From: Cheilinus undulatus
Lineage: Eukaryota; Chordata; Actinopteri; Labriformes; Labridae
Direction: 5' to 3'
NCBI RefSeq assembly: GCF_018320785.1
Contig: NC_054886.1
Span: forward strand, 35,820,020 to 35,884,019
Length of the DNA: 64,000 bases
Under the pieces are notes generated by a model. That model did no database searches. It saw only the letters and a list, made by a program, of their open reading frames with translations, and was not told the DNA's origin. The translations under genes and the position numbers were made by a program. Within the stretch, counting starts at the first letter, position 1. Each line of letters opens with the position of its first letter. This document shows, in pieces, positions 29,522 to 53,109 of this stretch.

Positions 29522-29527
29522 TTTATT
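29522..29527 (-). promoter_or_regulatory. Poly(A) signal of the Fc-receptor-like gene
   Basis: The minus strand reads GTAAATAAAGAAA, with the exact AATAAA about 70 bases after the stop codon at 29,596. The GGAT array begins 55 bases further on. Confidence 0.65.
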
Positions 29528-29595: not shown

Positions 29596-29708
29596 TCAGA
29601 AATGATACTCTGTGGTCACGTTAGCGATGGCGTCATCGTACTGATGGTCCGATCCCTCATCATCCTCTTGTAGAGACGACATCGCCATGGAAACAGACGG
29701 GTTCTCTC
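29596..29708 (-). CDS. Fc-receptor-like last exon: cytoplasmic tail and stop
   Basis: Acceptor ATCCTACAG. The tail is acidic (QEDDEGSD) with two tyrosines, in QYDDAI and TEYHF at the very end. Neither fits the ITIM pattern in full, since the +3 residue is Ala in the first and absent in the second. Confidence 0.85.
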
Positions 29709-32700: not shown

Positions 32701-35700
32701 AGAGACTGGACCCTGATAAACCTAGAGAACTGACCCTAATAAACCCAGAGAATGGACCCTGATAAACCCAGAGAATGGACCCTTATAACCCAGAGAACGG
32801 ACCCTGATAAACCCAGAGAACGGACCCTGATAAACCCAGAGAACAGACCCTGATAAACCCAGAGAATGGACCCTGATAAACCCAGAGAACGGACCCTGAT
32901 AAACCCAGAGAACGGACCCTGATAAACCCAGAGAACGGACCCTGATAAACCCAGAGAACGGACCCTGATAAACCCAGAGAACGGACCCTGATAAACCCAG
33001 AGAGTGGACCCTGATAAACCCAGAGAATGGACCCTGATAAACCCAGAGAATGGACCCTGATAAACCCAGAGAATGGACCCTGATAAACCCAGAGAATGGA
33101 CCCTGATAAACCCAGAGAATGGACCCTGATAAACCCAGAGAGTGGACCCTGATAAACCCAGAGAATGGACCCTGATAAACCCAGAGAATGGACCCTGATA
33201 AACCCAGAGAATGGACCCTGATAAACCCAGAGAATGGACCCTGATAAACCCAGAGAATGGACCCTGATAAACCCAGAGAATGGACCCTGATAAACCCCGA
33301 GAATGGACCCTGATAAACCCAGAGAATGGACCCTGATAAACCCAGAGAATGGACCCTGATAAACCCAGAGAATGGACCCTGATAAACCCAGAGAATGGAC
33401 CCTGATAAACCCAGAGAATGGACCCTGATAAACCCAGAGAATGGACCCTGATAAACCCAGAGAATGGACCCTGATAAACCCAGAGAACGGACCCTGATAA
33501 ACCCAGAGAGTGGACCCTGATAAACCCAGAGAATGGACCCTGATAAACCCAGAGAATGGACCCTGATAAACCCAGAGAATGGACCCTGATAAACCCAGAG
33601 AATGGACCCTGATAAACCCAGAGAACGGACCCTGATAAACCCAGAGAACTGACCCTGATAAACCCAGAGAGACTGGACCCTGATAAACCCAGAGACTGGA
33701 CCCTGATAAACCTAGAGAACTGACCCTGATAAACCCAGAGAACGGACCCTGATAAACCCAGAGAATGGACCCTTATAACCCAGAGAACGGACCCTGATAA
33801 ACCCAGAGAACGGACCCTGATAAACCCAGAGAACAGACCCTGATAAACCCAGAGAATGGACCCTGATAAACCCAGAGAACGGACCCTGATAAACCCAGAG
33901 AACGGACCCTGATAAACCCAGAGAACGGACCCTGATAATCCCAGAGAACGGATCCTGATAAACCCAGAGAACGGACCCTGATAAACCCAGAGAGTGGACC
34001 CTGATAAACCCAGAGAATGGACCCTGATAAACCCAGAGAATGGACCCTGATAAACCCAGAGAATGGACCCTGATAAACCCAGAGAATGGACCCTGATAAA
34101 CCCAGAGAGTGGACCCTGATAAACCCAGAGAATGGACCCTGATAAACCCAGAGAGTGGACCCTGATAAACCCAGAGAGTGGACCCTGATAAACCCAGAGA
34201 ATGGACCCTGATAAACCCAGAGAATGGACCCTGATAAACCCAGAGAATGGACCCTGATAAACCCAGAGAATGGACCCTGATAAACCCAGAGAACGGACCC
34301 TGATAAACCCAGAGAACGGACCCTGATAAACCCAGAGAACGGACCCTGATAATCCCAGAGAACGGATCCTGATAAACCCAGAGAACGGACCCTGATAAAC
34401 CCAGAGAATGGACCCTGATAAACCCAGAGAATGGACCCTGATAAACCCAGAGAACGGACCCTGATAAACCCAGAGAATGGACCCTGATAAACCCAGAGAA
34501 TGGACCCTGATAAACCCAGAGAATGGACCCTGATAAACCCAGAGAATGGACCCTGATAAACCCAGAGAATGGACCCTGATAAACCCAGAGAACGGACCCT
34601 GATAAACCCAGAGAATGGACCCTGATAAACCCAGAGAACGGACCCTGATAAACCCAGAGAACGGACCCTGATAAATACGTTAAAGCCACTGGTATAAAGT
34701 TTAAAGGTATTGGGTCTCTTTTTAAAAACTGACCTCTGACAAACAGCCAGCTGGGCAGAGACTTTCCGTGTCCTTTGATGTTACACCAGTACTGGCCTTC
34801 ATCAGAGGTAGAGACGTGGTAGATGGTCATGTGACCTGTAGTTCCATTACCGATGAGCTCGTTCCCACTGTAGAACTCAGCAGCGAGGTCGTCAGACCTT
34901 GTTTTACAATGCAGCGTGACGTTATCTCCCACAGCCACAGGGCGGACCGGACTCTGCAGGATCACGTCTCCACCTCATCAGAGAGAAGAAGGGTCACATT
35001 TTCAGGAGGAAGTTAAGGTTTGAACACTGAGGCAGTTAGAAATATAAAACTAGCCACTGTTCCTACCATGTACTGTGATTCTGGCAGAGTTGCTCCGCTG
35101 GCTGGTTACAGACTCACACCAGTAAGTGGCGCTGTCCGACTTCTTTGCTGTCGAGACGCAGCATCCAGACGAGGAAGGCGACCCCCATTTCCCTCCACAT
35201 GGAGACAGCTTTTGATCGGTGAAGGTGGCTCTGGTGACCCTCCAACCTAGAGATCTGCTGTTGTTCCCACAGCGCAGACAGAGGTTCCTGTACTCAAACA
35301 TCTGAGACGAGTCAGACGAGTCTGCAGACACCATGAGCATGACTGGCTCTGAATCTGAGGGAAGAGGGGCACAAGGATTTTATTAAAACCAAAGTTCCAA
35401 CTCCTGCTTGGAACCAGAGTTAGACCATAGTCCTCTTAAATCCTCACGCCCATCTAAAATGGCTTTAGCTACTCGAGAGCTCTGTAATGACCTTAATTTA
35501 TTTGATACATGGAGGATTATGCACCCAAAAGTGAAAGACTACACGTTTTTTTCCCGTCCACATAATTCGCAGTCAAGAATTGACTATATTTTTTCCTCAA
35601 GGCGAGCACTGGACAGGGTTAGTTCTTGTAATATAAAATCAATGACCATTTCAGATCATTCACTAATTAACTTAGAACTCACACCTCCTTATTTTGACCC

Positions 35701-38700
35701 CTCTACAAGACACTGGAGGCTCCAACCATCCTTGCTCAGTAACCCTAAGTTTCTTACTCTCTTAGAGGAAGAACTGACATTATTTTTTTCCATTAATGAC
35801 ACTCCTGATGTTTCAGCTTCCACACTTTGGGAAGCAGCTAAAGCATATATAAGAGGAGTAGCCATATCTTTCACTTCAGCAAAAAGAAAGGAAGCGCTCA
35901 AACAACAACTAGAGCTTGAATCTCAGATTGCTGACCTGGAGAGGGTCTATAATCACTCACTCCGGATCAGTTCTGAAGAAGCTAGATGCTGCCCGCTCAG
36001 CCCTTGATAATCTTCTTACCAATAAAGCAGAAATGGCCATTTTTATGCTAAGCACCGTTTTTGAATCCGCTAATAAGCCGGAAGACTTCTGGGTCTGCTT
36101 GGCAAAAGGTAGGTGGATTCCAATATAATACCTTCACTAAAAGATGGGGGGTTAAACACTTTGAATCTAAACATAAGGTTAACATTATGAAACTCTTTTA
36201 CCAAAAATTATATTCTCCTGAATGCCATGATTCTGCCAGTGACAGGGCCAGTTTTCTAGATCATTTAAAGGCAGAGGGCAGAGAAGATCTATGTGGTCCA
36301 GTCACTAAGGAGGAGGTGTTAAATACAATTAAATTCTTACCAAATTGGAAAGCCCCAGGCCTGATGGGTTCTGCCCTGAATTTTATAAGAAAATGGCTAA
36401 AATAATAGTGGATCCACTCACTAGAATGTATACAGAATCTTTTCAACAGGGAACTTTACCCCAGACACTTAACCTTGCCAATATTTCTCTTATATTAAAG
36501 AAGAATAAGCCCTCAGATTGTTGCTCTTCATATAGACCAATTAGCTTGATAGGAGTGGATTGTAAATTGCTGTCAAAACTTCTTGCCAGGAGGTTGGAGG
36601 TCCACCTCCCAGCCTTGATAAAACGCGATCAAACAGGATTCATAAAAAATAGGTTTTCACACTCAAACGTTCGGCGCCTTTTAAATGTAATACAATATGC
36701 TCGCTCTACTCAAGAAAGAATCCTATGTGTAGCTCTGGACGCAGCTAAAGCATTTGACAGGGTGGAGTTTGACTATCTTTTTGATGTGCTTGAAAGATTC
36801 GGACTTGGACCTGATTTTATTAAATGGGTGAGACTGCTTTATAGTGCCCCAGTGGCAAGAGTGTTGGTTAATGGCTGTGCCTCTGACGCCTTTAAACTGG
36901 GACGAGGAACGCGGCAGGGATGCCCCCTGTCCCCGCTTCGCATTGGCTATCGAACCGCTTGCAGAGGCTGTAAGGTGCTCTAAAGATATCTCTGGTGTAT
37001 GTCTTGCTGAACTGTGCATAAGCTAGCCTATATGCGGATGATGTCATCCTCTTTATGACTCAGCCTGAAATGTCTATTCCTGCCCTTGTTAAAATTATAG
37101 ATGCATTTGGCAGCTTTTCTGGTTATAGAATTAATTATGACAAATCTGAGGCCTTGCCTTTGGGAGACTTTGGGGACAAAAGTACCTTGTTGAACTTTCC
37201 ATTTAAGTGGTCTGACTCTGGCTTTACATACTTAGGTGTCAGGGTCTCAGCCGATTTAGGCAGTCTGTTTAAAATGAATTTTCTTCCCATTATTTCTGCC
37301 ATTAAAAGTGATCTTCTTAGGTGGTATGACCTCCTCTCTCTGGTTTGGTAGAGTCAGTTTAATTCAAATGAACATTCTCCCAAGAATCCTGTACCCAATG
37401 CAAATGCTCACTGAGGATCAATAAATCAGTTTTCACTGACATTGATAAAGCTATTTTGAAATTTATCTGGCATGGGAAAAATCACGCCTCAGTCTTAAAA
37501 CACTGAAATTGCCAGAGAGAGAGGTGGTTTGTCAATTCGGACTTAACTTTTATAATTGGTCATGCCACATGCGCATAGTGTCAGATTGGCTGAGACATTT
37601 TCTGATCCCAAGCAGGAGACCCATGTTGATACCTGGCACTGCCCCTCTTTATCTTTAATTGGTCTCATCACAAATAAATTATCTCTTCTTCCAGCTGAGG
37701 TACAAAGCAGCCCAATTTTAATGAATACAATCAAAACCTGGGAGAGGATTGTTAAATTTATTCAGAGAAAGGGGTCCTCATCTGTTTTACAACCTATCAT
37801 CCACAACCCGGCCTTCCCTCCAGGTTTGGGTGCAAATATTTTCCTACACTGGTATGATTGTGGTGTTAGGATTGTTGGAGATTTGTTTGAAGCTGATAAG
37901 TTATTATCATTTGAACAAGTCAGAAACAAATATACCCTCTAAACATTTTTACGGTTATTTACAGGTGAGACATTTCATCAGCAGCCTTGACCTACCTGAA
38001 ACTTTGCCTAAAGCTTCTGACATTGATTCATTTTTGTTACAATTTTGCCTCAATAAAAAATTCATATCCCCTGCCTATAGGAAGTTACAGTCTCTCAAGA
38101 CATTGAACATCAACAAAACTAAACGCTTATGGAGAGGGACCTTGGGATTGAGTTTGGGGAGCAGGCTTTGGTCTGATGCTGTAGAGTCCGTAGGGAAAAC
38201 TTTTGTGCAACAGGATATCAGAAAGTCAGTACAGAATCCTTCACAGATTGCAACGAATACCTTTTATCCTGAGTTGTCTCCCTTTGCAAAAAGTGTAAGA
38301 AAGAGGTCGGTTCTTACATTCAGTGTATCTGGAGCTGTTCTGAGGTATATGATTTTTGGGTAAAAGTTTCACAGGAATTAAATCTTATTTTTGGTAAGAC
38401 AATACAGGTAAATTCCAGTTTGTTTCTTTTAAACATAGCAAGTGAGAAACTCTGTTTGACAAATGTCCAACATAAACTTTTGAGCAAGCTTACTGTCTTG
38501 GCAAGAAGATGTGTTTTATTTCAGTGGATTAAATCCAGACCTCCAACTATCAGTCAGTGGCATGGAGAAATTCTTAAAGTTTTGCCGATGGAACGTTTAA
38601 GTTCAAGGTTGAAAGGAAATGAGAAGTCTTTTGACAAGCTTTGGGGGCCCTTTCTTGACTATCTTCCAGACTGCATCACAGACTTAATAAAGAAGGGATG

Positions 38701-41700
38701 TTGTGATGTAAACTGGCGCCCCTCATGTACTCTTCAAAATCCTTGAGGTTCTCTAATGTGTATCTTATTTTAATATTAGGTTATTTTATTGTGCTTTATT
38801 ACCTTTCCTGCTTTGTGGATTCATTGAACCACATTTGATATCCAATTACAGTGATATAGAAATGTCTACGTGGAACCGCCTGTACTAGTACATCATGCTT
38901 GTTATAGGGATATTTTGACCATTTCGTTTTATTTTGTATGTATTGTCTGATCCCACTTGGTTTATACTCTGCTTATTTCAGTACTTGCTGTCATGTGTTT
39001 TTCGTTTTCTTTTTTCTTTTCAGTTTTCCTCCTTTTTTCCTCTTAAATGTTCAAAATTCAATAAAACATGTTAAAAAAAAAAAACCAAAGTTCCTGTGCC
39101 AAGGAGAAATTTCACACATTGAGGGTGAAAAGCTGTTAAAAGTGGCAACACCTTCCAGTCTTGTGCTGCTGACTCTCTTTAAAGGCTTAACATGAGTCCA
39201 CTAACAGAGGGCTTCACCACACATTTGAAGAGCAGGATCCTCATTCATCTAAGTCTAACGATAGAACGGTACACCCCTACAGACAGACTGGAACCATGAT
39301 TGGTGGATTACTGTGGTAAAACTGATCAATAAACCCAAATTTCTGATCAGAGGCAGAAGAACTGATCATCACCGATAGAAGGAATCTATTTTCATTTCTA
39401 AAATCCTACCCGGAACAGAGACAGGTTCAGCTGTGAGGGTGGAAGTTCAAGTCCTGATGATCGTCTAGACTGGCCTGCACGCAAAAGGCAAGGATGGAAT
39501 GTTTATCAAGCTTTGATGTCATCATTAAAAGGCAAAGATGGAATGTTTATCAAGCTTTGATGTCATCATTAAAAGGACAGGATGGAATGTTTATCAAGCT
39601 TTGATGTCATCATTAAAAGGACAGGATGGAATGTTTATCAAGCTTTGATGTCATCATTAAAAGGACAGGATGGAATGTTTATCAAGCTTTGATGACATCA
39701 TTAAAAGGCAAGGATGGAATGTTTATCAAGCTTTGATGTCATCATTAAAAGGCAAGGATGGAATGTTTATGAAGCTTTGATGACATCATTAAAAGGACAG
39801 GATGGAATGTTTATGAAGCTTTGATGACATCATTAAAAGGCAAGGATGGAATGTTTATGAAGCTTTGATGACATCATTAAAAGGCAAGGATAGAATGTTT
39901 ATGAAGCTTTGATGTCATCATTAAAAGCGTGAAGGATTTTATGCTGGTTGTTGTTGAGCCCCAACAATGACAGAAACTAGCCCTGACATTTGACCTAATT
40001 CTGTCTGACCTTTCCAGCTGCATGCTGAACACCAATCACAGCTCTGATCATTTTATACGTCCTACAGGCTCGTTCTGTCACAGATTTGAAGAACAATCCC
40101 TCCTACTGGAAGTCTCACAGAGGGTGGAAACGCCTCCACTTGATTTTATTTTACATAATCTGTCCCTTTAGTAAAACTAATCGGAGGGCTCTGGTCTCTG
40201 CACGAGCCCTAACAGAGACTTAAGTTTCTCAAACTGGCAGTCAGAGAGTGCCACATATGACAGCAGCTTCATAAAGGTGCAGTTCCTCTAACATCCACCA
40301 GGTGGTGCTGTAGGAGAGGCATAGGAGCATCAACACTGTTAACGTGTCTAACAGCAGAGAAAGAACAGCAGGAGGAGATGTTACAGAGTTAAACTTCATA
40401 ACTCTCACCGTTCACCAGCAGCCAGCTGGGTAAGGATTCTGTCTTCCCTATCCGACACTTGTACGCCCCCTCATCAGACTTAGAAACACGCTGGAAGGTC
40501 ATGTGACCCGTGGGCTCCTCCCTGATGAAGAAGCCGTTCTTATAGAAGTTAGCAGGCAGACTGGAGGAGTTCTTCTTCTGACAGCGGAGTGTGACCTCCT
40601 CTCCCTCCGTCACAGGGTGGGCGGGGCCTTCTATGATCACCGTTCTCTCTAAACACAGAGACGAGACTTCAAACATCAACATACAGAGCTAAAGGAGGAG
40701 CATAGATGTATATAAATACAGTCCAAGTCCAAACAGGTTGGGGCGCTGCTGTTTCTGTTCTACTGTGAGTCAGATATGGATTTAAGAGATCTGAAACTCA
40801 CTGACTTCTGTTTTTATTTACATTTTACACAGTGTACCAACTTTTTTGAAAGTTTTTTGTTGTGTTTTATTTTAGGTGGTTTTTTTTTACTTTTTTGAAA
40901 GTTTTTTTGAATGTTTTTTTCGTTTTGTTTGTTTTGGTTTTTACTTCCTTTTATGTTTTTTTTTTTTTTTTTTTACTTTTTTTTGAAAGTTTTGTTTTGT
41001 TTTGGGTTGTTTTTCTTTTTTGTACTTTTTTGAAAGTTTTTTGTTTTGTTTTGTTTTGGTGTGTGTGTGTGTGGTTTTTTTTATGGTTTTTTTTTTTTAC
41101 TTTTTAGAAAGTTTTTTGTTTTGTGTTGTTTTTTACTTTTTTATGTGTTTTTTTTACCTTGTTGAAAGTTTCTTTGTTTTGTTTTGTTATGTTTTGTTTT
41201 TTAAGACTTTTTGAATTTTTTTTTTCCTTTAACTTTTTTGAAAGATTTTTTTTTGTTTTGTTTTGGTGTGTGTGTTTTTTTTTTATTTTTAAATTTTGTC
41301 TTTTTTACTCTTTTGAAAGTTTTTTGTGTTGTTTTTGTTCTTTGTTTTTACTTTATGTTATGTTTTTGCTTTTTGAAAGTTTCTTTGTTTGTTTTTGTTT
41401 ATGTTTTACTTTTCTGAATGTTTTTTGTTTTGTTTTTTTACTTTCTAAAAAAAATTTTTTTCTTTTTACTTTTTTGAAAGCTTTTTTGTTTTGTTTTGGT
41501 GTGTGTGTTTTTTATTTTATGTCTTTTTTACTTTTTTGAAAGTTTTTTCATTTGTGTTTTTTGTTTTTACTTTTTTATGTTCTTTTTTTTACTTTTTGAA
41601 AGTTTCTTTCTTTGTTTTTGGTCATGTTTTACTTTTCTGAATTTTTTTTGTTTGTTTTTTATTTTCTTAAAAGTTTTTTTTCCTTTTATTTCTTTGAAAG

Positions 41701-44700
41701 TTTTTTTGTTTTGTTTCATTTTCATGGAAGTTTTTCTTTGTTTGTTTGTTTGTTTGTTTGTTTGTTTGTTTACTTTTTTGGAATATTTTTTGTTTGGTCG
41801 GGTATTTTTTTTTAATTTCTTGGTAGTTTTTACGTGAGTGCCTGGTTGCTCCTGAGCTGAGATGAATCATCACACAGACAAAGATTCACTTCCCTCTGCT
41901 CTCATCACTTCCCTTTGAAACCGGCGGTCTGAGACACAGAGTGGAGTACTGACCCCTGATTGGTCGCCTGGACCTGTGAGTCACTTTAAAGACTTATATA
42001 TATGTTAGACTCTAAAGCTCTGCTGACTGACAGAAGGACAGAAGAGCCCGGAGTCTTACGGCTGACGGTAATGTTGACCGTGTCGCTGCTGTCTCTGTAC
42101 TTGGACTCGCACCAGTACATGCCGCTGTCCGTCACCTTGATGGTCTTCATGTCGCAGAGCGTGGATGTCTGGTGGCCCCAGCCGGAGCCGCAGTGGGACA
42201 AGACTGGATCCTGACTGGGAGAACTATGGGGAGAATACAAGCGGAGAGATTCAGTGGTGTGTGTTCTCCCTGCTCTGTGTGTATCAGGCACATTCTGGGA
42301 CGCATTAAAGGTACAGTCAGTGGAAAAGGAAGGGGTAACTCTAGCTGCTGATTGGTAGATAGAAAGGTCAGGATGGGACCCCCAGGCTAACTGGTAGTTA
42401 CTCCTGTTTTCTAAAGGCCTGTGTCTGCTGGCTCACTGGTTCTCTGCCTGAAGTTCTGCATACAGCAGTGGTTCTCAACCTTGGGGTGGGGACCCCTTTG
42501 GGTACAGCCCTGCAATCAGAAGGTCGTGGGTTCGATCCCCAGCTCCTGCAGTCACATGTTGGATGTGTCACTTAACTCCAGTCTGCTCCAACTGCTGCAG
42601 CAGTGGAAATGTGTAAGGCAGTGGTTCTCAACCTTGGGGTGGGGACCCCACTGGGGGTCGTGAGACACTAGAAGGGGGTCTCCAGATGCCCTAAAAAAAA
42701 ACTGAGAAGATTTTTTACTCCAATTTTGTGACTTTTTTTTTTTTTTTTACCCCTTTTCATCATTTTTCCCCACAAATTTTAACACATTTTTTACCATTTA
42801 ACACCCATTTTTGTCCATTTTAAACCCTTTCCAACACTTTTTCTGCCTGTTTTTGTCGCTTCTAAACCAATTCTTGCCACTTAAACTGTTGCCTCTGTTG
42901 ACCCATTATTGTCACTATTAACCCCTTTTTACACCCATTTTTTCCCATTTTAACCACATTCAACCATGTGTTATGCCCATCGTTGCTTTTTTAGCCAATT
43001 TCTGCAAATATCTGCCTATTTTTTCTGTCGCAGTTAACTCTTTTTTGCCAGTTATATCAATTTTTATCCCATTTCACTAAATTTCCACTAATTTTTACCG
43101 ATTTAAAGCCAATTTGGCCACACTTTACCTCCCCTTCACAGCTATATATGCCAATTTTTAGCCACTTTAACCCATTTTTGCCATTTTGATCTAATTTTTG
43201 CCTTTTCTAATCCATTTCTGCTAATTTTAAAATCCAAGTTCCACACCTTTTCAACCATTTTTGCCATTATCAATCCATTTCAGCAATTTTTAAACCATTT
43301 TAATTCATTTTTGCAGCAAAAGGATTTACATTTTTAAGAAGGCTATTGACTGAATAAATTATTCAAAAAAAAAAGAAAAAAAGAAAAATATATATATATA
43401 TATATAAAACAGCACAAGTGATTAAAAAAAAGTTTTTTTTGTTAAGGGTGGTTATTTTTTCAGGTTAATATATGAAATATGGATACCACAGCTTAACTTT
43501 GAAAGACCACTGATTATCAACTGGTGGCCTGGGGGCCATATCAGGCCCCCCAAAGCCTTCTGTCTGGACCCCCAAAGATCATTAAATTCAGAAAAGGAGG
43601 TTTTAACAGTATCCTTTGGCTCTAAATGTCTGCAGCTGTTAAATCTACCCACAATCAATCAATATTGAAATAGTTTGAGAATAACTTAACATTTGATCTG
43701 TTCTTACAGAAGTTTACTTTTCAGTCAAACTTAAATATTTTTAAAAAGGAGTAAGGCTGGTAAAAGTGTCACAAAAATAATGGGTGATAAATGGGGAAAT
43801 GGGTTGTTGGAGCGGCACAGAGGGACAAAAAGTGGTGAAAACAGGAGGAAGGGGTGAAAGTATCAAAATGGGTTAAAAGTGGCAACAATAGTGCAAAAAA
43901 AGTAACAAAAAGAGGTTAAAAAGTGTCAAAAATAGAAGAAAAGTGGAAAGAAAAATGTTAAAACATGCTGGAAAAGTGGTTTAAAAGGGGTTAATAGAGG
44001 AAAAAATTGGTTTAAAGGGGCAAAAATGGGTTGAAGGCCGCAAAAATAGCGCAAAAAGTAACGAAAAGAGGTTAAGAAGTGGCAAAATTAGAAGAAAAGT
44101 GGAAAAAAAGACCATAAAACATGCTGGAAAAGTAGTTTAAAAGGGGGTAAGAGTGGAAAATTGGTTAAAAGTGGAAAAAATGGGTTAAAAACAGCAAAAA
44201 TAGAGCAAAAAAGTAACGAAAAGAAGTTAAAAAAGTGTCAAAAATAGAAGAAAAATGGAAAAAAAGACTATGAAACATGCTGGAAAAGTGGTTTAAAAGG
44301 GGTTAAGAGTGGAAAAAAATTGGTTAAAAATGGCAAAAATTGTGCAAAAAAAGTAATGAAAAGGTGTTGAAAAGTGTCAAAAATAGAAGAAAAGTGGACC
44401 GAAGAGGATAAAACATGCAGGAAAAATTGTTTAAAAGGGGTTAGCTATGGAAAAAAAATGGGTTAAAGAGGCAAAAATAGTGCAAAAATAGAAGAAAAGT
44501 GCAACGAATAGCGTACAACATGCTGGAAAAGTGGTGTAAAGGGGTTAAGAGTGGAAAAAATGGGTTAAAAGTGTCAAAAAGTGTCAAAAATGGGTTAAAA
44601 GTGTAAAAAATAGTGCAAAAAAGTAATGAAAAGAGGTTAAAAAGTGCCTAAATAGAAAAAAAGTGGAACCAAGAGGATCAAACATGCTGGAAAAGTGGTT

Positions 44701-47700
44701 TAAAATGGGTTAAGAACGGAAAAAATGGATTAAAGAGCCAAAGATGGGTGAAAAGTGGCAAACATTGATTTAAATGTTAAAATAATGAAAGGAAAAGGGG
44801 CTAAAAATGGATAGAAGAGGGTAAAACATGCAAAATCTTGCAAACATTGGTAAAAGAGGAAAAAAAGTGGCAAAAGTATTAAAATGGGTTAAAAGTGGTT
44901 AAAACAGTGCAAAGAATTAATGACAAGGGGTTAAAACTAGGAAAATATAAGAAAAGTGGCAAAAATGGATAAAAGAATGGCACAAAGAGGATAAAACATG
45001 CAGAAACACGCAGAAACACGCAGAAACATGCAGAAACACGCAGAAACACGCAGAAACACGCAGAAACACGCTGGAAACGTGGTTCGTGATGGGCTAAAGA
45101 ATTGAAAAACGAGTTAGAGAGGCAAGAAAGGGTTAAAAGTGGCAAAAACAGCAGACATAGCCTGGCAACGTTGCAGAAAGGGATTAAAGAGTAGCAAAAT
45201 GGGTGGAAAGTGGCAAACACTGATTTAAATGTTGCAATAAAATGTCATGAAAAGAGGCTATAAAGTGGCAGAAATGGATAAGAGTGAAGGCAGTAAAACA
45301 CGCAGAAGTGGTTTAAGAGGGGTTAAAATCTTACAAAAACTGGTAAAAGAGGAAAAAAGGGAGTAAGAAGTATTAAAAAATGGGTTAAAAGTGTCAGAAA
45401 TGGGGGATAGCTCTCGCTGGTGATGACTAAAATGTCCTATGTCACTGGAATGATCTTCGTGACCCATTTTTGGGTCTCGACCCACCATTTGAGAACCACT
45501 GATCTAGCTTATCCTGTTCTGGGGTTGTGGGATCACTGGAGCCTATCCCAGCTGTTACTGGGCTAATAACCAGGCATGCTCTCACTCACATCTATGGGCA
45601 ATTTAGAGTCACCAGTTAACCTAACGAGCATGTCTTTGGTGGTAGGAGAACCCGGAGAGAACCCACGGGGGGAACGTGAAAACCAGGAACCTCCTCGCCA
45701 TGAGGTAAGAGCGCTAACCCCTGCCCCGCCGTGACGCCCCGGCCCATCATCACTGATGATTAACCGCCACACGGCATCGTTTAGATTCTGGTGACTAACC
45801 GACCCGTCTGTGTATCTCCACACCGTCCAATCATCAGTGCCCAAGTGCTCACAGCTCACAGAGACGCTCTGGTACTCGAAGACCTGGGAGGTACTGGGAG
45901 AGACGATCAGCGAGGCTGGAAACAGAGAAAAGACACGTTAAACACTCAGGAGAATAAAAACAAGTCCAGCCATTTTTAAACGCTTTTTAGTTTTATTTTT
46001 TCAACAAAAGGGATTTATATTCTTAAGAGGGCTATTAACTACATAAATGATTAAGAAAAGATGTTTGTTTCTCTGATGACAGTGGTCCAGGGGTCCCCGG
46101 TCTCTGGGACCTTCATTTTGGGGGTCACAGGCTGGAAATGTTGAGACCTCCTGCCCTAGACTGGTGGTTTCCAACCTGAGCCATAGCTCTCTGAATCTGT
46201 GAACTTTTTAAACCACTTTTCCAGCATGTTTCATCCTCTTTGTGCCACTATTATCCATTTTTACCACTTTTATTCTATTTTTGCCACTTTTAACCCATTT
46301 TGATATTTTTGCCCTCTTTGCTTCCTTTACCCAACTTTAGCCATCCTCTAACCCCTTTAATCCACTTTTCCTGCACGTTTTCTCCCCTTTGTGCCACTCT
46401 TAAATCCTTTTTTGCCAGTTTTCAACCAATTTTTGATGCTTTTTGCCCCTTTTTGCTTCCTTTACCCAATTGTTGCCATCCTTAAACCAATTAAACCACT
46501 TTTCCAGCATGTTTTATCCCATTTGTGCCACATTTCTTCTCTTTTTGCCACTTTTTAACCTCTTTTCACCACTTTACCTGGTCATTTTTGCCAACCTTAA
46601 CCCTATTTTTAATTATCTACTAATTATGACAGTAAATTTCTGTCAAATGTGAAGTCATTCTCAAACTATTTCAGTATGAATTCATTCATTCAACCTTTAT
46701 TTAATCTCGATTTTCAATGATGTCGAGAGTACAACCAATAAAATGCATCAAGAAAATTGATCCAAAGAATATCAACAAAACAATTAAAAAACAGTTACGT
46801 TCAAAAGCAGAATAGTTTATAATCATAGTTTTAAACTGACCAATAGGAACAAGTGCTTGCAGTTTAAATGTTTGTTGTAAAGCATTCTAAGTGAACGCAG
46901 CAGAGAAGCTGGAAGCGGTTCTTCCAAATACAGAGTTTGCTCGAGGAACATCAAGCATCAGGAAGTTACTGGACCTGGTTGAGTACTGACTGTGAGACTG
47001 ATTTAACAGAGATGTGATGTACGATGGCATATTACCAAGTAGGGCTTTATAAATGAATAAGTACCAATGCCTGTCACGTCTTACAGACAGGGGTGCCCAG
47101 CCCACCTTTTCATATAGAGTGCAATGATGAGTGGAGTAGCCTTGACCAGAGATGAATCTGAGGGCTGAGTGATAAATGGAGTCCAGGGGTTTAAGAGTAG
47201 AGGCAGAGGCGTTCCTATAAACAACATCCCCATAATCTCAAACAGATAAAAAGACAGCTTCAATGATACGGTTCCTACCTAACAATGGGAAGTTAGTTTT
47301 ATTCCTGTAGAAAAATCCAATTTTTTGTCTTAACTTGCTGGCCAGGGAGTCCATATGAAATTTGAAGGTGAGTTTTTGATCTAACCAAATACCCAGATAT
47401 TTATACTCAGATACTCTTTCAATGCTGTGTCCTGTTAAAGTGGTAATGTGAACATTATTGTCGTTGATGTCTGTGGCTTTGGAGAAAAACATGAGTTTGG
47501 TCTTACTAGGATTGAGAACCAGTCTTAAATCAAACAGAGCGTGTTGTAATTGATTGAAGTTTTGCTGGAGGGTTTGAATGGCTGAATGTGCGGTATTGGC
47601 AAAACAATATAAAATCATATCATCAGCGTAAAGGTGGATGTTACAATCTATTATAGAGGATGTGATATTGTTGATATATATTGTAAATAATAAAGGACCC

Positions 47701-50700
47701 AGTACTGAACCTTGCGGTACACCTTTTGAAAGAGGCAAGTACACAGAGCGACAGTTATCAACAACAACACATTGATCTCTCTGTGAAAGGTAGTCCTGGA
47801 ACCATTTACAGGCTAGAGAGTCAAAACCAGTTTCTCTTAACCTTTCAAGGAGCAGGGAATGGTCAACAGTATCAAAAGCTTTAGTTAAGTCTACAAATAA
47901 AGCAGCACAGTATTTCCTCTGGTCTAACTGAGAGATTATGTCATTTGTGACAGAAGTGACTGCAGTGATGGTACTGTGATTTGTTCTGAAACCTGATTGA
48001 TGTGGAGTTAATACATGATTACTGGAAAGGAAGGATTTGATTTGCTTGTTGACTAATGATTCTAAGATTTTCGCTAGACAGGACAGTTTGGAGATGGGCC
48101 TATAGTTATTGAGGTCAGTTTTATCCCCACCCTTGTGTAATGGGAGAACATGTGCAGTCTTCCAGACCTGGGGGAAACCCCAGTGGAAATAGACAGATTA
48201 AACAAATGTGCAACTTGCTCTGCAATAATTGGTGCACAGAGTTTTAGGAAAAAAGGATCAATTTTATCTTGGCCAGTTGTTTTCCTGCAGTCTATATGTT
48301 GAAGTGCGTCTCTGACAGCAGAGGAGGTGAAGGGCTGCAAGCTAAATAGAAAGGTAGGGTTTGTGGAGGGAGCCTGAGACAGTGGCTGACTGTTTAAAGC
48401 AGAGCTGGAGTAAATGGTGTCAAACTGGTTACCAGCAGCAGCAAAGTGTGTGTTAAAAGCTTGGCAGATCTGTTCTGGTTTGTCTATGATACAGTGATTA
48501 TATATAATACTTGAAGGAACAGTTGACATTGGGTTGTTTTTAATTACATTAACAGCTTTCCAGAACTTTGATGGGTCATTATAAGCATTAGAAACAATAT
48601 CTATATAATAATTAGCTTTGGCTTTCCTCAGTGAAGAAGTGCATTTGTTTCTCAGCTGTTTAAAAGTCAGCCAGTGCTCTGTACTCCCTGTTCGCTTTGC
48701 CAAAGCCCAGGCTTTATCCCTTTCCTTAAACATTAAGGATAGGTCTGTGGTGAACCATGGGCTACGTCTATCTTTGATCCTCAACTTTTTAAAAGGAGCA
48801 TGTTCATCAATGATAGTAAGCAAGGTGTTTAGAAATACTTAAAAGCCTCTTCCATATTCAGTGTTTCTGTTGTCTGATTTATGTTGCTGTCTATAATGTC
48901 TTGTAGAAAAGCCTGCTCATTGAAATTTTTAAAATTTCTTTTAAAAACAATCTTTGTGCTTGACTTGTTGATTTTAGCACCCCTAACACAGACTATAGGA
49001 CAATGATCACTTAACCCAAGACCAAAAACGCCAGAGGCAGAAGTTTTGTCAGGTCTGTTACACAAAATAAATCAATTAACGTTGACCTGGAGGAGACAAT
49101 CTGCACCAGATGTAGATCATCACATTTTTCTTTAAGGTGATCTGAGTCATTTGATAACCAGTTGAGGTTAAAGTCACCTAAAACTATTAACTCAGACTTG
49201 TTGAGCTCTGAAAGTAAGTCAGCTATATCAGAGACTGACATAGAAGTGGCTGAGGGTGGTCTGTAGACACCAACAACATTGACTGGACTATTGTTTGAAA
49301 TGATCATTTTCAAAGCAATAAATTCAAAGGACTTGGCTACAGAAACAGCTTATAGGAGTAACAGACTTCACATACACAGCCACACCACCTCCTCTTAACT
49401 CTGTCTGTTCTGTACAGGTTATAATTTTGTAAATTGAACTCAGAGTCGGGTGTACTCAGCAGGAAACCAGAGCATCACTGGATACAGGCATGAAAGATTT
49501 TAGACCCTCTACAGGGAGCCTAAAGGTCAGCAACCCAACCAGGTCTATACAAATCTGGATGAGATAAATAAAACCATGTGTATGTGCTGAGCTCCTGGTC
49601 CAATAGTCAGGTCATCAGTTAGAAACTAAAGGTACTGGTTATGACCCCTTTGTCACCATGGCGAGGATGATGTGTGCTTTACAGTAAGTGATGCTGGTGG
49701 TCTGAATGTCAAAGAAACACTGGTTGGAAACAGGAAAGCAGCATCTGGCCTTTCTGAACCCTTTCTAACCACGAGGACGGAAGTGTGTCTACGCCTTAAA
49801 ACCCACTCCAGCAGAGATGAGGAGGGCTGGTTTAAACTGACACCAAAACAACTGCTCTTCCTGTCATAATGTTTGAAATAATCCAGAAACAGGGATGTGG
49901 ACTCACCTCGATGCTGGGCGGTCGTCTGGTAGAGTCTCAGCACTGAAACCACAGATTAGAGATCACTGAGTCACTGCAGAAGCTAATGGATCATACAGAC
50001 CTGTACATTTCAAATCTCACACGGAAATATTCTGTTTATTTCAATAACTAGAGCTGCGAGCAGCACTGAAGGGCCCTCACACCCCAGCGCATGTGCCACA
50101 ACCACAGGAGTGTGTGAATAATCAGGTGTGAGCAACCCATGCTGTGTGCTGAAAAATAAGAAAAAAACATGACATCGCATGTAGGAGATGCTGCTGCGAG
50201 CAAACAGTAGGTGGCCCATGAGCAAAGACATGTAATACATGTTTAAAAACACTTTTAAACACACTTTTAAACACATTTAAACACACATTTAAACACGTTT
50301 AAACACATTTAAACACATTTAAACACACATTTAAACAAGTTTAAACACATTTAAAGACATTTAAACACATTTAAACACACATTTAAACACGTTTAAACAC
50401 ATTTAAAGACATTTAAACACACATTTAAACACATTTAAGCACATTTAAACACACATTTAAACACGTTTAAACACATTTAAACATGTAGAGGGGCGGACAG
50501 TAGAATTGTTAGATTTGATGCAAATCAGAAGTTTTATATAAGAGTTATAGCAACTTCCTGTGAAATGGCGTGATAAAAAATTGCTCGCCAATAAAGAAAT
50601 GGACCAGTTGTACCTCCTTCTCTTGCCAGTGGGGGTGCTACATCAAAACTATGAAGCCAACCTTTGAATATGTAGAGAGGCAGATCATGAGAGTTGCACA

Positions 50701-53109
50701 TACTTCCTGTCTAATTGGCGAGATATAAAAATACTCGCCTTCTTCAGTGAGACATCTTTCAATGAAACATGTCTGTGTTGTTGCAAATTATTGAGACCTT
50801 TCTTTCAAAATCAAAGCTCAGTAGGTGAAGCACAATAAGAGGTGAAGATATGACCCATCCGTGTCACTTCCTGTTACCAGCAGAGGGCGCTATGATGAAA
50901 TTTTTGCGTGTTCCATGTGATTCTGTTGTCTTTCAAGGAAGAGCAGAAGATCACTGAATATTTTACACCAATGTCGAATAGGTTAAAGTCATCTGGCACC
51001 ATCGAAAATGCCTTATTTTGAAATTGAGTTAAAGCTCATGGACTTCCTGTTGGGATTTTGGCGTGGGTCCAAGAGGCTTTTTTGTAGGTCTGATGATGAC
51101 CCACATGCAGAGCAAAAATCATAAGCCTAGGCTGAATTGTTTGCTGGGGCTGAAAATTTAAAGGGAAAATTTTAAAAAATCCAGGACGGAAATGTCCCAT
51201 TGTCAGAAGAGGGCGCTGTGATAAAGTAATGATACTGATGTTTGAATGTATTCAGGATGAATGTGTGATCATGCCTGTGAAGTTTGGTGATGATTGATAA
51301 CAGCATTAAAAAGTTATAAGGCATTGTAAGTGAATTTTCACTGCAACAAATGCACAAAAAATAGTTCAAGTCTGGGCTCCGTCATGACCCCGCCCTGTGG
51401 TGAAAACCCACAATTCATACAGCTTTAGATCTCCGGGCTGACTAGTGCACTGGTTTTCAAACTTTTGTCACCCAAGGCACACCATATTTAAATGGATACA
51501 AAATAGACTTTTTAAATAATGTTACAGTCAAGTGGCCTATAAGGGGAGAGAGGGGCGAGCTTTCTGTGGCCCAGCCAACTGGGGGATCATGGAGATGGCA
51601 AGAGTGGACAAAAAGTGGCTAAACAAAGTTAGAAATGGGCGAAATTGGTAAAAAGTGGCCAACCAATGGGTTGAAATTGGCCAAAACTTGTTGAAAGTGT
51701 CAAAATATTGGCAAAAATGGGTTAAAGTGGCCTCAAAGGATTAACGATGTAAGAAGGTGGTAAAAATGGGATAAAAGTCATAAGAAAAAAGGCAAAAAAG
51801 TGGTCAAAGGCAAAAGTGGGCAAAAGTGGCAAAAGGTGGCAAAAAAGGTTAAAGTTACAACAAGGTGGTGCACCGGTAGTCGAGTGGTTAAGGCGCATGC
51901 CATATACGCAGGCGACCCGGGTTTGAATCCAGCCTGTGGCACTATTTCCTGCATGTCTCTCCCCGCTCTCTTCCCTGTTTCCGACTCTATCCACTGTCCT
52001 ATCAAATAAAGGCAAAAAGGCAAAAAAATAAATCTTAAAAAAAAATAAAATTAAAAAAAAGTTATGACAAGGTGGTAAAAAAATGGTAGCAAAAATGGGT
52101 TAAAGGTGGCAAATAGTTCCAAAAAAGTTCCAAAATGGGTTAAAGGTGGCAAAAAGTTCCAAAAATGGGTTAATTGTGGTAAAAAAAAAAAAGTTCCAAA
52201 AAAGGTAGCAAAAATGAGTTAAATGTGGTAAAAAAAAAAAAGTTCCAAAAAAGTTGCAAAAATGGGTTAGACTTTTCTTCCTGTCTAATCATGACATATA
52301 TGTGTACCGCTTTTCGTGTACCTAGCTCTTACCCAGTCCTCTATCTCACATTCGGGGCCCCTGTGGGGCCCCTGTACTTTGGGCTTGCACAATTCCACCA
52401 AAATACTAAAACTTCCCTTAGGGGACAATTTTCTGTAAAGTCTGGTGAGTTTCTGAGCGTGCTCCTAAAGTAGCGATTCGTCTGACACACACAGGTACAG
52501 TAGGCTCCCAGGTTTGTGTTCGGGCCCTAAAATTTAAAACGTAGAAACGCGCTGTCTGACTTTATGTGGAAACCAGAACAAGAACAATGAAAAATTTCCA
52601 ATCAATACTCGCCAAAGGCGTGTTCAGTTTGGACAGTGTGAACATAAACGTGCCGTACTCACGTCTGAAAATTTAACCGTTCACGGCGAGGCTTTTACTC
52701 TGAAAATCCAGCCTGCTTCAGAGATGCTACATAGCTGACTTTTATTCTGAAATGAAAGCTTTTATTGTGAAAGAGTGATACCACTGTTTTAAGCCACTGA
52801 AGTTCCCTGAACTTGATCCTTTTCTATATCGGCGTCCCGTTCATTTCAGAGTAAAACTCACTGTTTTGGTCCCTGTAGCCATGCTAATGTGCTCACACAG
52901 GAAACGTCCCAAATGTTTGGATTGATGTGATCTTTGCAGAGGAAGTTCAGCGCTAAAACAGCTGAAGAACACAGAAACCACCACGGACTGGCTTTCCCCA
53001 CATGCAGGTACCTGAATGTTCCCCTCTGTCCACTAAAACTAGAAAACGGCTGGTCTTACAGTGAATAAAGATTTATCTACTCACAGAGGAGCAGCAGAGC
53101 CGTCTTCAT
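29596..53109 (-). CDS. Fc-receptor-like membrane protein, four Ig domains, 446 residues
   Basis: Ten exon pieces join in frame. From the 5' end: 53,085-53,109, 49,907-49,942, 45,800-45,915, 42,060-42,210, 40,409-40,648, 35,067-35,354, 34,734-34,973, 29,834-29,965 and 29,596-29,708 (total 1341 bases; the third and fourth are two halves of one Ig domain). All junctions are GT-AG and, apart from the split one (phase 0), are phase 1, the hallmark of Ig exons. Residues 1-20 are a signal peptide, split over two exons as in Fc receptors. D1 is 21-109 (Cys42-Cys93, DSGMYWC), D2 110-189 (DEGAYKC), D3 190-285 (D1-like, DSATYWC), D4 286-365 (D2-like, DEGQYWC). A helix of about residues 387-404 (VVVVCLYVVCTVL) spans the membrane. 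The 37-residue tail ends QYDDAIANVTTEYHF. The expected role is a leukocyte surface receptor; ligand unknown. The tail has no canonical ITIM. Confidence 0.88.
29834..29965 (-). CDS. Fc-receptor-like exon 8: membrane-spanning segment
   Basis: 132 bases, encoding an extracellular stalk, the helix VVVVCLYVVCTVLAAMSY and the start of the tail. A second AG 33 bases into the exon (CTCCTCTGCAG) would give an 11-residue shorter stalk in frame. Donor G/GTAACG. Confidence 0.85.
30440..30835 (+). mobile_element. LINE fragment, C-terminal region of reverse-transcriptase ORF
   Basis: The plus strand encodes RDRVRNSDIRKDLEVEPLLL, QLRWFRHPIR, RRPRGRPRTCWRD and GIPQEELEKVVGERDVWND. This is a conserved C-terminal segment of fish non-LTR retrotransposon polyproteins. 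The clade was not assigned. It lies in the intron between the membrane exon and D4, opposite to the gene. Confidence 0.7.
30870..31262 (+). repeat. Degenerate TGGCCACAAAATACTAAATT repeat
   Basis: About fifteen diverged units of 20-28 bases are each centred on TGGCCACAAAATA. They follow the LINE fragment directly and have no coding value. Confidence 0.8.
31263..32009. other. Intron DNA, nothing recognised
   Basis: Mixed composition. An open stretch at 31,486-31,776 on the plus strand has no family motif. The minisatellite starts abruptly at 32,010. Confidence 0.5.
32010..34675 (+). repeat. 23-bp minisatellite, array 2 (about 116 copies), inside the receptor intron
   Basis: It has the same unit and variants as array 1 at 26 kb (GAGAATGGACCCTGATAAAC plus CCA), in the same orientation. 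Extra variants are a 22-bp CCCTTATAACCC form, GAGAGTGG, and GATAATCCC. The long reading frames are period artefacts. Confidence 0.95.
34734..34973 (-). CDS. Fc-receptor-like exon 6: Ig domain D4
   Basis: 240 bases, phase 1 at both ends, with VGDNVTLHC, GHMTIYHVSTSDEGQYWC and LPSWLFVR. The donor is G/GTCAGT. The frame stays open past this donor into a minisatellite. Confidence 0.9.
35067..35354 (-). CDS. Fc-receptor-like exon 5: Ig domain D3
   Basis: 288 bases, phase 1 at both ends. FEYRNLCLRC, SPCGGKWG and KSDSATYWCES match the layout of D1, including the extra cysteine pair. Acceptor CTTCCCTCAG, donor G/GTAGGA. An L1 element lies 31 bases upstream. Confidence 0.9.
35399..39080 (+). mobile_element. 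L1-clade LINE, 5'-truncated, with poly(A) and 14-bp target duplication
   Basis: Interrupted frames give the end of the endonuclease (SRIDYIFSSRRA, ISDHSLINLEL) and the RT core: PISLIGVDCKLLSKLLARRL, DQTGFIKNR, AFDRVEFDYLF, RQGCPLSPL and YADDVILF (near 37,033). A C-terminal region follows. There are several frameshifts and stops, for example after QGCPLSPL, so it is inactive. It ends in AATAAAACATGTT plus an A-run. AAAACCAAAGTTCC flanks both sides (35,385-35,398 and 39,081-39,094). Confidence 0.92.
39487..39930 (+). repeat. 44-bp minisatellite, about ten copies
   Basis: The unit holds GGATGGAATGTTTATCAAGC, then TTTGATGTCATCATTAAAA. Variants are GGCAA/GGACA, CAAGC/GAAGC and GTCATC/GACATC. It lies in the D2-D3 intron. 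Confidence 0.95.
40409..40648 (-). CDS. Fc-receptor-like exon 4: Ig domain D2
   Basis: 240 bases, phase 1 at both ends. It carries EGEEVTLRC, then GHMTFQRVSKSDEGAYKC and LPSWLLVN. D4 is a clear internal relative. Confidence 0.9.
40850..41830 (+). repeat. 1-kb T/G tract built on CTTTTTTGAAAGTTTTTTG
   Basis: The strand is almost entirely T and G, with recurring ACTTTTTTGAAAG blocks and a TTTG microsatellite at 41,738-41,772. It starts at the end of an AAAAAAGTTGGGAC-type element (ACAGTGTACCAACTTTTTTG), which may have supplied the seed. Phe-rich frames are composition artefacts. Confidence 0.85.
42060..42210 (-). CDS. Fc-receptor-like exon 3b: C-terminal half of Ig domain D1
   Basis: It begins after CCCAGTCAG and encodes DPVLSHCGSGWG through DSGMYWCES and VNITVS, ending at donor C/GTAAG. 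The distance between Trp50 and Cys66 in the joined protein is within one residue of the equivalent spacing in D3, which supports this junction. A second possible acceptor (CCCCATAG, 13 bases earlier) would break the frame. Confidence 0.75.
42466..42618 (+). mobile_element. Truncated tRNA-derived SINE behind a duplicated hAT end
   Basis: CAGTGGTTCTCAACCTTGGG at 42,466 is followed by a SINE body: GCAATCAGAAGGTCGTGGG, a B-box-like GGGTTCGATCCCCAGC, then CACTTAACTCC. The same hAT end recurs at 42,619. Confidence 0.65.
42619..45501. mobile_element. Nonautonomous hAT-type element, 2.9 kb, inside the split Ig exon
   Basis: The ends CAGTGGTTCTCAACCTTGGG and ACCATTTGAGAACCACTG are inverted repeats. 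The body is TTTTTGCCACTTTTAACCC-type repeat on the left and its reverse (GTGGCAAAAATGGGTTAAAAG) on the right, plus a CAGAAACACG decamer run at 44,999-45,069. There is no transposase. Flanking octamers (GTGTAAGG, ATCTAGCT) do not match. An older repeat piece (TATCAACTGGTGGCCTGG) lies at 43,515. Confidence 0.75.
45502..45748 (-). mobile_element. tRNA-derived SINE, reverse orientation
   Basis: The minus strand reads GGGGCAGGGGTTAGCGCTC (A-box region) and GGTTCCTGGTTTTCACG (decayed B-box). The tail follows: AAAGACATGCTCGTTAGG, AATTTAGAG-type sequence and AGCTGGGATAGGCTCCAG. This is a familiar fish SINE layout. Confidence 0.75.
45800..45915 (-). CDS. Fc-receptor-like exon 3a: N-terminal half of Ig domain D1
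   Basis: Acceptor TGTTTCCAG. It encodes the strands up to RYTDGS, including VSVSC (Cys42) and DDWTVW. The best in-frame donor is GGTCG/GTTAGT, a weak site. Without that donor the frame runs into a SINE and stops at 45,563. Confidence 0.72.
46140..46650. repeat. T-rich TTTTTGCCACTTTTAACCC repeat fragment
   Basis: It is the same repeat body as in the hAT-like elements, in the intron before D1, starting near GGTTTCCAACCTGAGCC. Ends are not resolved. Confidence 0.55.
46672..49330 (-). mobile_element. Degenerate LINE with endonuclease and reverse-transcriptase pieces
   Basis: Minus-strand frames give endonuclease motifs (VVGVYRPPSA, LIVLGDFNLNW, LSDHCPIV). A linker region follows (FTTDLSLMFKERDKAWALAK). 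RT motifs are KGVPQGSVLGPLLFTIYINN and the catalytic LYADDMILY at about 47,610. A maturase-like end follows, then a GAATGAATGAAT tail near 46,680. Frames are broken at several places. The clade is probably in the jockey/CR1/L2 group; it was not resolved. Confidence 0.85.
49907..49942 (-). CDS. Fc-receptor-like exon 2: 36-base signal-peptide mini-exon
   Basis: Acceptor TGGTTTCAG and donor GTGAGT enclose 36 bases that complete the leader (LLRLYQTTAQHR). A tiny second leader exon is typical of Fc-receptor genes. Confidence 0.75.
50046..51410. mobile_element. Unclassified fish interspersed repeat (AGAGCTGCGAGCAGC type)
   Basis: It starts AACTAGAGCTGCGAGCAGC, with GAAGGGCCCTCACACCCC, and contains repeated CACTTCCTGTT and GAGGGCGCT segments. 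Such sequence is seen dispersed in fish genomes, but a superfamily cannot be given from sequence alone. No protein was detected. A TTTAAACACA minisatellite sits inside it. Confidence 0.4.
50235..50485 (+). repeat. ACATTTAAACACA short-period minisatellite
   Basis: Roughly twenty units of 10-13 bases: CACATTTAAACA, CACGTTTAAACA, AGACATTTAAACA. Confidence 0.9.
51540..52275. repeat. A-rich GTGGCAAAAATGGGTTAAAAG tract interrupted by a SINE
   Basis: It is the reverse of the TTTTTGCCAC body. It contains the SINE at 51,866-52,020 and A-runs. It lies in the first intron of the receptor gene. Confidence 0.6.
51866..52020 (+). mobile_element. tRNA-derived SINE, full head
   Basis: A tRNA-like head has A-box GTCGAGTGGTTAAGGCGC and B-box GGGTTTGAATCC. 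The body GTGGCACTATTTCCTGCATG, CCGACTCTATCCACTGTCC and an AAATAAAGGCAAAAAGG tail mark a widespread fish SINE family. Confidence 0.85.
53085..53109 (-). CDS. Fc-receptor-like exon 1: start and signal peptide, part 1
   Basis: ATG then KTALLLL, ending at donor T/GTGAGT. This start was chosen because it leads straight into a hydrophobic leader and matches the phase of the next mini-exon. Confidence 0.8.

Follow-up and report, generated by a model that had tools for sequence, protein, structure and literature searches.

How does a domain of the kind usually encoded by one exon come to be broken in two by several thousand nucleotides (nt) of other DNA? The question is raised by an Fc-receptor-like gene on the minus strand of a 64,000-nt stretch of the Cheilinus undulatus genome (G000:C22:35820020-35884019), referred to here as the window. 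In mammals such genes typically have one exon per immunoglobulin (Ig) domain. In this gene the second, third, and fourth Ig domains (D2, D3, and D4) each occupy a single open exon, as a preliminary description of the window had stated; these exons are of phase 1-1, and the first domain (D1) departs from the pattern. Its two halves lie 3589 nt apart on the minus strand (exon edges 45800 and 42210), exactly as first described. Our preferred answer, drawn from sequence comparison and held with moderate confidence, is that the D1 exon gained a spliceosomal intron after the gene parted from its relatives, and that the gene is live and specifies an Fc-receptor-like protein with four Ig domains.

A receptor gene with one divided domain

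The gene comprises a leader, D1 (in two exons), D2, D3, D4, a transmembrane segment, and a last exon, arranged as follows.

53085 to 53109, minus strand: probable first leader exon, unproven, encoding MKTALLLL plus one base, with donor CTCT/GTGAGT
45800 to 45915, minus strand: exon of the D1 5' half, with acceptor TTTCCAG/CC and a putative donor TCG/GTTAGT at 45799; positions 1-36 of the domain profile described below
42060 to 42210, minus strand: exon of the D1 3' half, with a putative acceptor CAGTCAG/GATCC and donor GCC/GTAAGA; profile positions 39-85
40409 to 40648, minus strand: D2 exon, phase 1-1; Pfam Ig_2 at 1.7e-8, above the cut-off
35067 to 35354, minus strand: D3 exon, of the same domain type as D1 and unsplit; no Pfam match
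34734 to 34973, minus strand: D4 exon; Pfam Ig_3 at 2.3e-6, below the cut-off; acceptor ending in the unusual GAG
29834 to 29965, minus strand: transmembrane exon, assigned from hydropathy and splice sites
29596 to 29708, minus strand: last exon, 37 residues to the stop codon

When joined, the leader, the six exons that follow it, and the last exon encode 434 residues in one frame with one stop, and an AATAAA polyadenylation signal is present at 29527, beyond the last exon. The gene's other exons have GT-AG edges, all in one frame. The preliminary description had proposed a protein of 446 residues, which was not confirmed; a second leader exon that would supply the difference was not found. 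The listed leader exon was located by scanning for a leader motif, and by eye it is like the leader starts beside two of the relatives. A scan for signal exons gave no site under strict thresholds and one unconvincing site under looser ones. The best matches of the joined D1 are Fc gamma receptor I chains (a weak 2.3e-4), and the reading frames and domain content indicate that this is probably a live Fc-receptor-like gene with four Ig domains.

The D4 acceptor at 34974, which ends in GAG and not in CAG or TAG, is an unusual and possibly weak site.

Two halves of one Ig domain

An 85-position profile of 27 relatives is filled at positions 1-36 by the D1 5' half (32.7 bits) and at positions 39-85 by the 3' half (46.4 bits). 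Joined versions of D1 score 78.2-82.5 bits on this profile, which is within the range of the 27 intact relatives (63.4-110.9 bits, each relative being scored on a profile without the rows more than 60% like it). All six frames of 41800-46100 were searched, and no further significant piece of such a domain is found there. Judged by these alignments, the halves make up one Ig domain. The possibility of two unrelated half-domains was ruled out because the halves tile a single profile. Tandem duplication of D1, followed by deletion of a different half in each of the two copies, was ruled out because no other domain piece occurs in 41800-46100; also against it, the DNA at the edges of the interruption has only weak matches (expect values, E, of 0.14-0.76) in the rest of the window and in the loci compared with it.

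In Pfam, the joined D1 matches Ig_3 at 1.2e-4 (22.9 bits; curated cut-off 30), and the halves taken singly give at best 0.1 (Ig_3) and 0.057 (V-set). The spacing of the hallmark tryptophan (Trp) and cysteine (Cys) had been described as within one residue of that in D3, and this holds: counted from Trp, the Cys is residue 17 in D1 and residue 16 in D3. Among the relatives it falls at residues 14-18 (21 of 27 have both residues, three lack the Trp, and three lack that Cys).

Unsplit relatives in the same genome

A search of the whole genome (1.17 Gb, 46 contigs) with the joined D1 yielded 29 matches at E <=0.01 among 46 candidates scored. Two are the gene's own halves, and the remaining 27, which include D3, run across the join in a single open frame. 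When the domain of a relative was used as the query instead (48 candidates scored), 38 of 39 matches spanned the domain, meaning that they started at or before query position 6 and ended at or after position 85 of 87. Only one of these 38 has an internal TAG, and the sole partial match is the D1 3' half of the window itself. Every match from both searches is on C22, the contig that carries the window. Split domains score lower, so further split members of the group could be missed. Viral contigs were checked in case they happened to carry related DNA, and no relative was present among them.

The intron is absent from the D1 site in the relatives, all of which are paralogs from this genome. In a tree of 28 domains, D1 is on a supported side of 15 rows whose other members are single-exon; the root is arbitrary, and the grouping of D1 with D3 (89/4) carries a warning that it may be an artifact. 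Because all other relatives found are unsplit and only D1 is in halves, this gene most likely gained the interruption.

In one relative (L069 6596-7246, at about 33.66 Mb of G000:C22) a single reading frame runs through D1 and D2 without a break. The short gap between its two domains could be a very small intron, or there may be no intron there at all.

Content of the interruption

The DNA between the two D1 halves can be divided as follows, from the 5' half of the domain to the 3' half.

42211 to 45799, minus strand: the interruption as a whole, a probable intron of 3589 nt
45741 to 45799, minus strand: 59 nt adjoining the D1 5' half, with essentially no copy elsewhere
about 45506 to 45740, minus strand: copy of a short interspersed nuclear element (SINE); genome search, 40 of 3950 candidates scored
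42618 to 45501, plus strand: hAT-type element with ends CAGTGGTTCTC...GAACCACTG and a low-complexity interior
about 42509 to 42616, plus strand: second interspersed repeat, the left SINE of the preliminary description; 40 of 1082 candidates scored
42465 to 42502, plus strand: second copy of the hAT-type end, a repeat within the window at 95%
42211 to 42464, minus strand: 254 nt adjoining the D1 3' half, for which no other copy was found (one match, itself)

The three repeats that had been reported between the halves all exist; for the hAT-type element, the right-hand boundary at 45501 was placed only by eye. We take 45506-45740 to be a SINE from its look, not from a repeat library, and the hAT superfamily is likewise our presumption, based on the ends of the element. 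A search with the 5' end from 42618 gave 2984 candidates, of which 40 were scored, and the interior is also repeated (2893 candidates). By eye, there is no 8-nt duplication in the hAT flanks.

The earlier view that this stack of elements itself became the intron was not supported, since the stack does not abut the exons and the 59 and 254 nt lie between them. A search with 45745-45799 returned one match, itself, and just one of 43 matches from the SINE search extends into the 59-nt edge (15 nt at 75% identity). No donor copy of either edge piece was found in the genome search, which skips very common words and so limits statements about single-copy DNA. With the 59 and 254 nt intervening, repeats do not reach to or near both splice sites as they do in the Introner families discussed below. 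The edges of D1 have no direct or inverted repeat beyond that seen in shuffles, although old ones could have decayed. The sole direct match there is the 5-mer AGTCA, which is at chance level: when 15-nt stretches of the window are paired at random, 12.9% of the pairs have a 5-mer in common.

A probable gained intron and its candidate splice sites

Under the reading we prefer, an insertion or repair event would have placed sequence of unspecified source, of which the 59 and 254 nt survive, midway along the domain. The insert would then be spliced out of the mRNA by means of GT and AG sites on either side of it. The SINE and hAT-type elements would have landed later, stretching the intron to 3.6 kb, and the mature protein would carry a complete D1.

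The joining of TCG/GTTAGT to CAGTCAG/GATCC keeps the frame, as originally claimed. On the scoring matrix used here, another pair formed by donor CGG/GTCGGT (45803, score 3.83) and acceptor CCCAG/TCAGG (42214, 8.24) is also in frame and scores as well, so in-frame joining is weak evidence. Thus at least two in-frame GT-AG pairs leave D1 whole, and their donors are weak. With either of the best pairs the Cys falls at residue 17 from the Trp, and the break in D1 is of phase 0 or phase 2 depending on which is used. The strongest nearby donor (45823, 6.11) is in frame and removes part of the domain. At the outer edges, the acceptor of the D1 5' half at 45915 is strong (12.97), and the donor of the 3' half, GCC/GTAAGA, is weak (3.43).

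The foremost alternative, which we regard as possible but decidedly less probable, was put forward in the preliminary description: a transposon inserted straight into the D1 exon, cryptic sites in the target provided the splice signals, and more elements then piled in. The transposon's own ends would since have decayed to single-copy sequence. Three kinds of interspersed repeat do lie between the halves, AGTCA is present at both edges with the frame kept on joining there, and the 59 and 254 nt beside the exons may be what is left of a decayed element. The Cys spacing, which falls within the relatives' range, and the presence of the left repeat also lean slightly in this direction, though both effects are small. 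On the other side, the DNA by both splice sites is essentially without another copy in the genome, and the edge repeats, AGTCA included, do not rise above shuffles or chance. Furthermore, the splice sites of intron 3 of the slc26a2 gene lie within the repeats of the inserted element, unlike those here (PMC12357937).

The visible transposons are not favored as intron makers, given that they lie inside the edges and that other introns of the receptor gene hold repeats as well (the amounts were not compared). A transposon stack within an intron is by itself no evidence of the origin of that intron. An intron that came first and received transposons later would fit the sequence as well as, or better than, an intron made by a transposon. 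Of the earlier proposal of insertion into an Ig exon followed by splicing, what survives is an interruption that was gained in an Ig exon and is probably spliced. The part in which the stack itself became the intron does not.

Age of the elements and state of the gene

The SINE copy differs from a 29-copy consensus at 32 of 225 sites (14.2%), or at 26 of 201 (12.9%) outside CpG, and carries four deletions. The 29 copies are themselves 6.5-27.5% from their consensus; they are the best matches, which biases divergence low, and an unrecognized subfamily would bias it high. The 5' end of the hAT-type element differs from a 12-copy consensus at nine of 98 sites (9.2%). Neutral decay of the six exons through stops and frameshifts was simulated at three indel rates with 4000 runs each. 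At 13% divergence, not one of the 4000 copies still had six undamaged exons (0.7-0.9% when stops alone were counted), and at 9% at most one of 4000 did (3.2-3.4% for stops alone). By this measure the gene, taken in its entirety, has very probably been maintained from the time of the element insertions onward. The same is likely, if not certain, for D1 alone, and its score within the range of intact relatives adds weight to that view.

These results bear on two further explanations, neither of which we consider probable. In one, D1 is skipped and the leader is spliced directly to D2, giving a three-Ig receptor in which the D1 halves are relics or belong to an alternative isoform. Such skipping would be neutral to the frame through phase 1-1 symmetry, as both leader and D2 are phase 1, and the weak internal sites and the simulation of D1 alone are compatible with it. 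We doubt it nonetheless, given that both halves are free of lesions, that D1 scores like the intact relatives, and that its acceptor at 45915 is strong (12.97). In the other, raised in the preliminary description, D1 has been ruined by the insert, and what we see is a null or mis-spliced allele of a dying gene. The weak D1 donor, the weak donor of the 3' half (3.43), and the GAG acceptor at D4 would suit this outcome, which is improbable because all exons are open although the elements in the insert are 9-14% diverged and none of the 4000 simulated dead copies was intact at 13%. A spliced intron is likelier than a null allele, unless the whole insert came recently as one block.

Several observations weigh against a gained intron in a live four-domain gene. 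The putative donor, which had rightly been described as weak, scores 4.77, and 4.7 is reached by 7.5% of the 3177 GT dinucleotides in the scanned stretch. The acceptor scores 6.36 and is equaled or beaten by 10.8% of 3327 AG dinucleotides, including higher-scoring ones nearby at 42214, 42223, and 42347. Loss of the insert alone would leave the Cys at residue 20 from the Trp, outside the 14-18 of the relatives. D3 has no Pfam match, D4 and the joined D1 fall under their cut-offs, and the small second leader exon (36 nt, 12 residues) was not found under the thresholds used. The branch of D1 in the tree is long, and its place within the side of 15 rows is unsure. In the decay simulation, whose indel rates are assumed, the fraction of runs that left D1 alone intact was 0.0015-0.066 at 13% and 0.023-0.156 at 9%. 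Finally, the ages of the elements set a bound on the split only on the condition that each was inserted at its present site and did not arrive within an old block.

Other features of the locus

The remaining introns of the gene have distinctive contents of their own. The intron between leader and D1 contains a reverse-transcriptase reading frame (47241-48197, Pfam RVT_1), and the D2-D3 intron contains another on the opposite strand (36333-36980, Pfam RVT_1) as well as a 44-nt tandem repeat in ten copies (39483-39927). Between the D1 3' half and D2, at 40830-41820, is about 1 kb of very T-rich DNA with periods of 208-223 nt. Most of the intron from D4 to the transmembrane exon is a 23-nt minisatellite (32010-34675, about 116 copies with 95% matches) that is open in several frames. 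No Rfam match was found in 38000-50000, and ARAGORN found no transfer RNA gene in the whole window.

Comparison with known systems

Intron gain in vertebrates is described as rare (PMC12357937), and its mechanism is rarely caught. The locus described here sets one split member against dozens of unsplit relatives in the same genome, which gives polarity to the gain, and the genomes of one or two related fish, once compared, would provide a bracketed date for it. If the intron were transposon-born after all, a single locus would preserve a readable record of how an intron arose in a vertebrate, which seldom happens, and its minimum age could be dated from the SINE and hAT copies nested in it.

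The nearest parallel is the notothenioid slc26a2 gene, whose introns 3 and 5 were made by transposons (PMC12357937). There, as here, a coding exon of a ray-finned fish was interrupted, elements lie inside the intron, and later insertion lengthened it. The two cases differ in that the gt-ag sites of slc26a2 intron 3 are within putative direct and inverted repeats of the element and orthologs show the gain (PMC12357937), whereas here the edges are essentially without another copy and the comparison is limited to paralogs. Introners also create introns by insertion into exons, in some cases using splice sites that the target supplies, but they form groups of similar introns with likeness near both splice sites (PMC9860276), and the edges here were found once. 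For vertebrates, the same study reports no pattern of gain through Introners (PMC9860276).

Receptor genes provide further points of comparison. Genes for the Fc receptor families FcR and FCRL resemble this one in having Ig domains in phase-1 exons along with transmembrane and tail exons (PMC2413239, PMC4016189), and the splice signals of Xenopus FcR-like genes are described as conforming to a phase 1 rule (PMC2413239). This gene is unlike them in having D1 in two exons. Literature searches on neighboring topics, none of them worded for precisely this case, brought up no fish Fc-receptor-like gene in which an Ig exon is split, as judged from titles and the openings of abstracts. Fish melanocortin receptors (PMC3151243) and cichlid olfactory receptors (PMC4122780) likewise have introns in receptor genes with one-exon kin, inferred from sequence in both cases and mostly of phase 0 in the latter. 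Those introns are common to several species (PMC3151243, PMC4122780), whereas the present one is known from one gene in one genome. With such precedents among fish, the divided D1 exon makes a good candidate for an uncommon event of a type already described.

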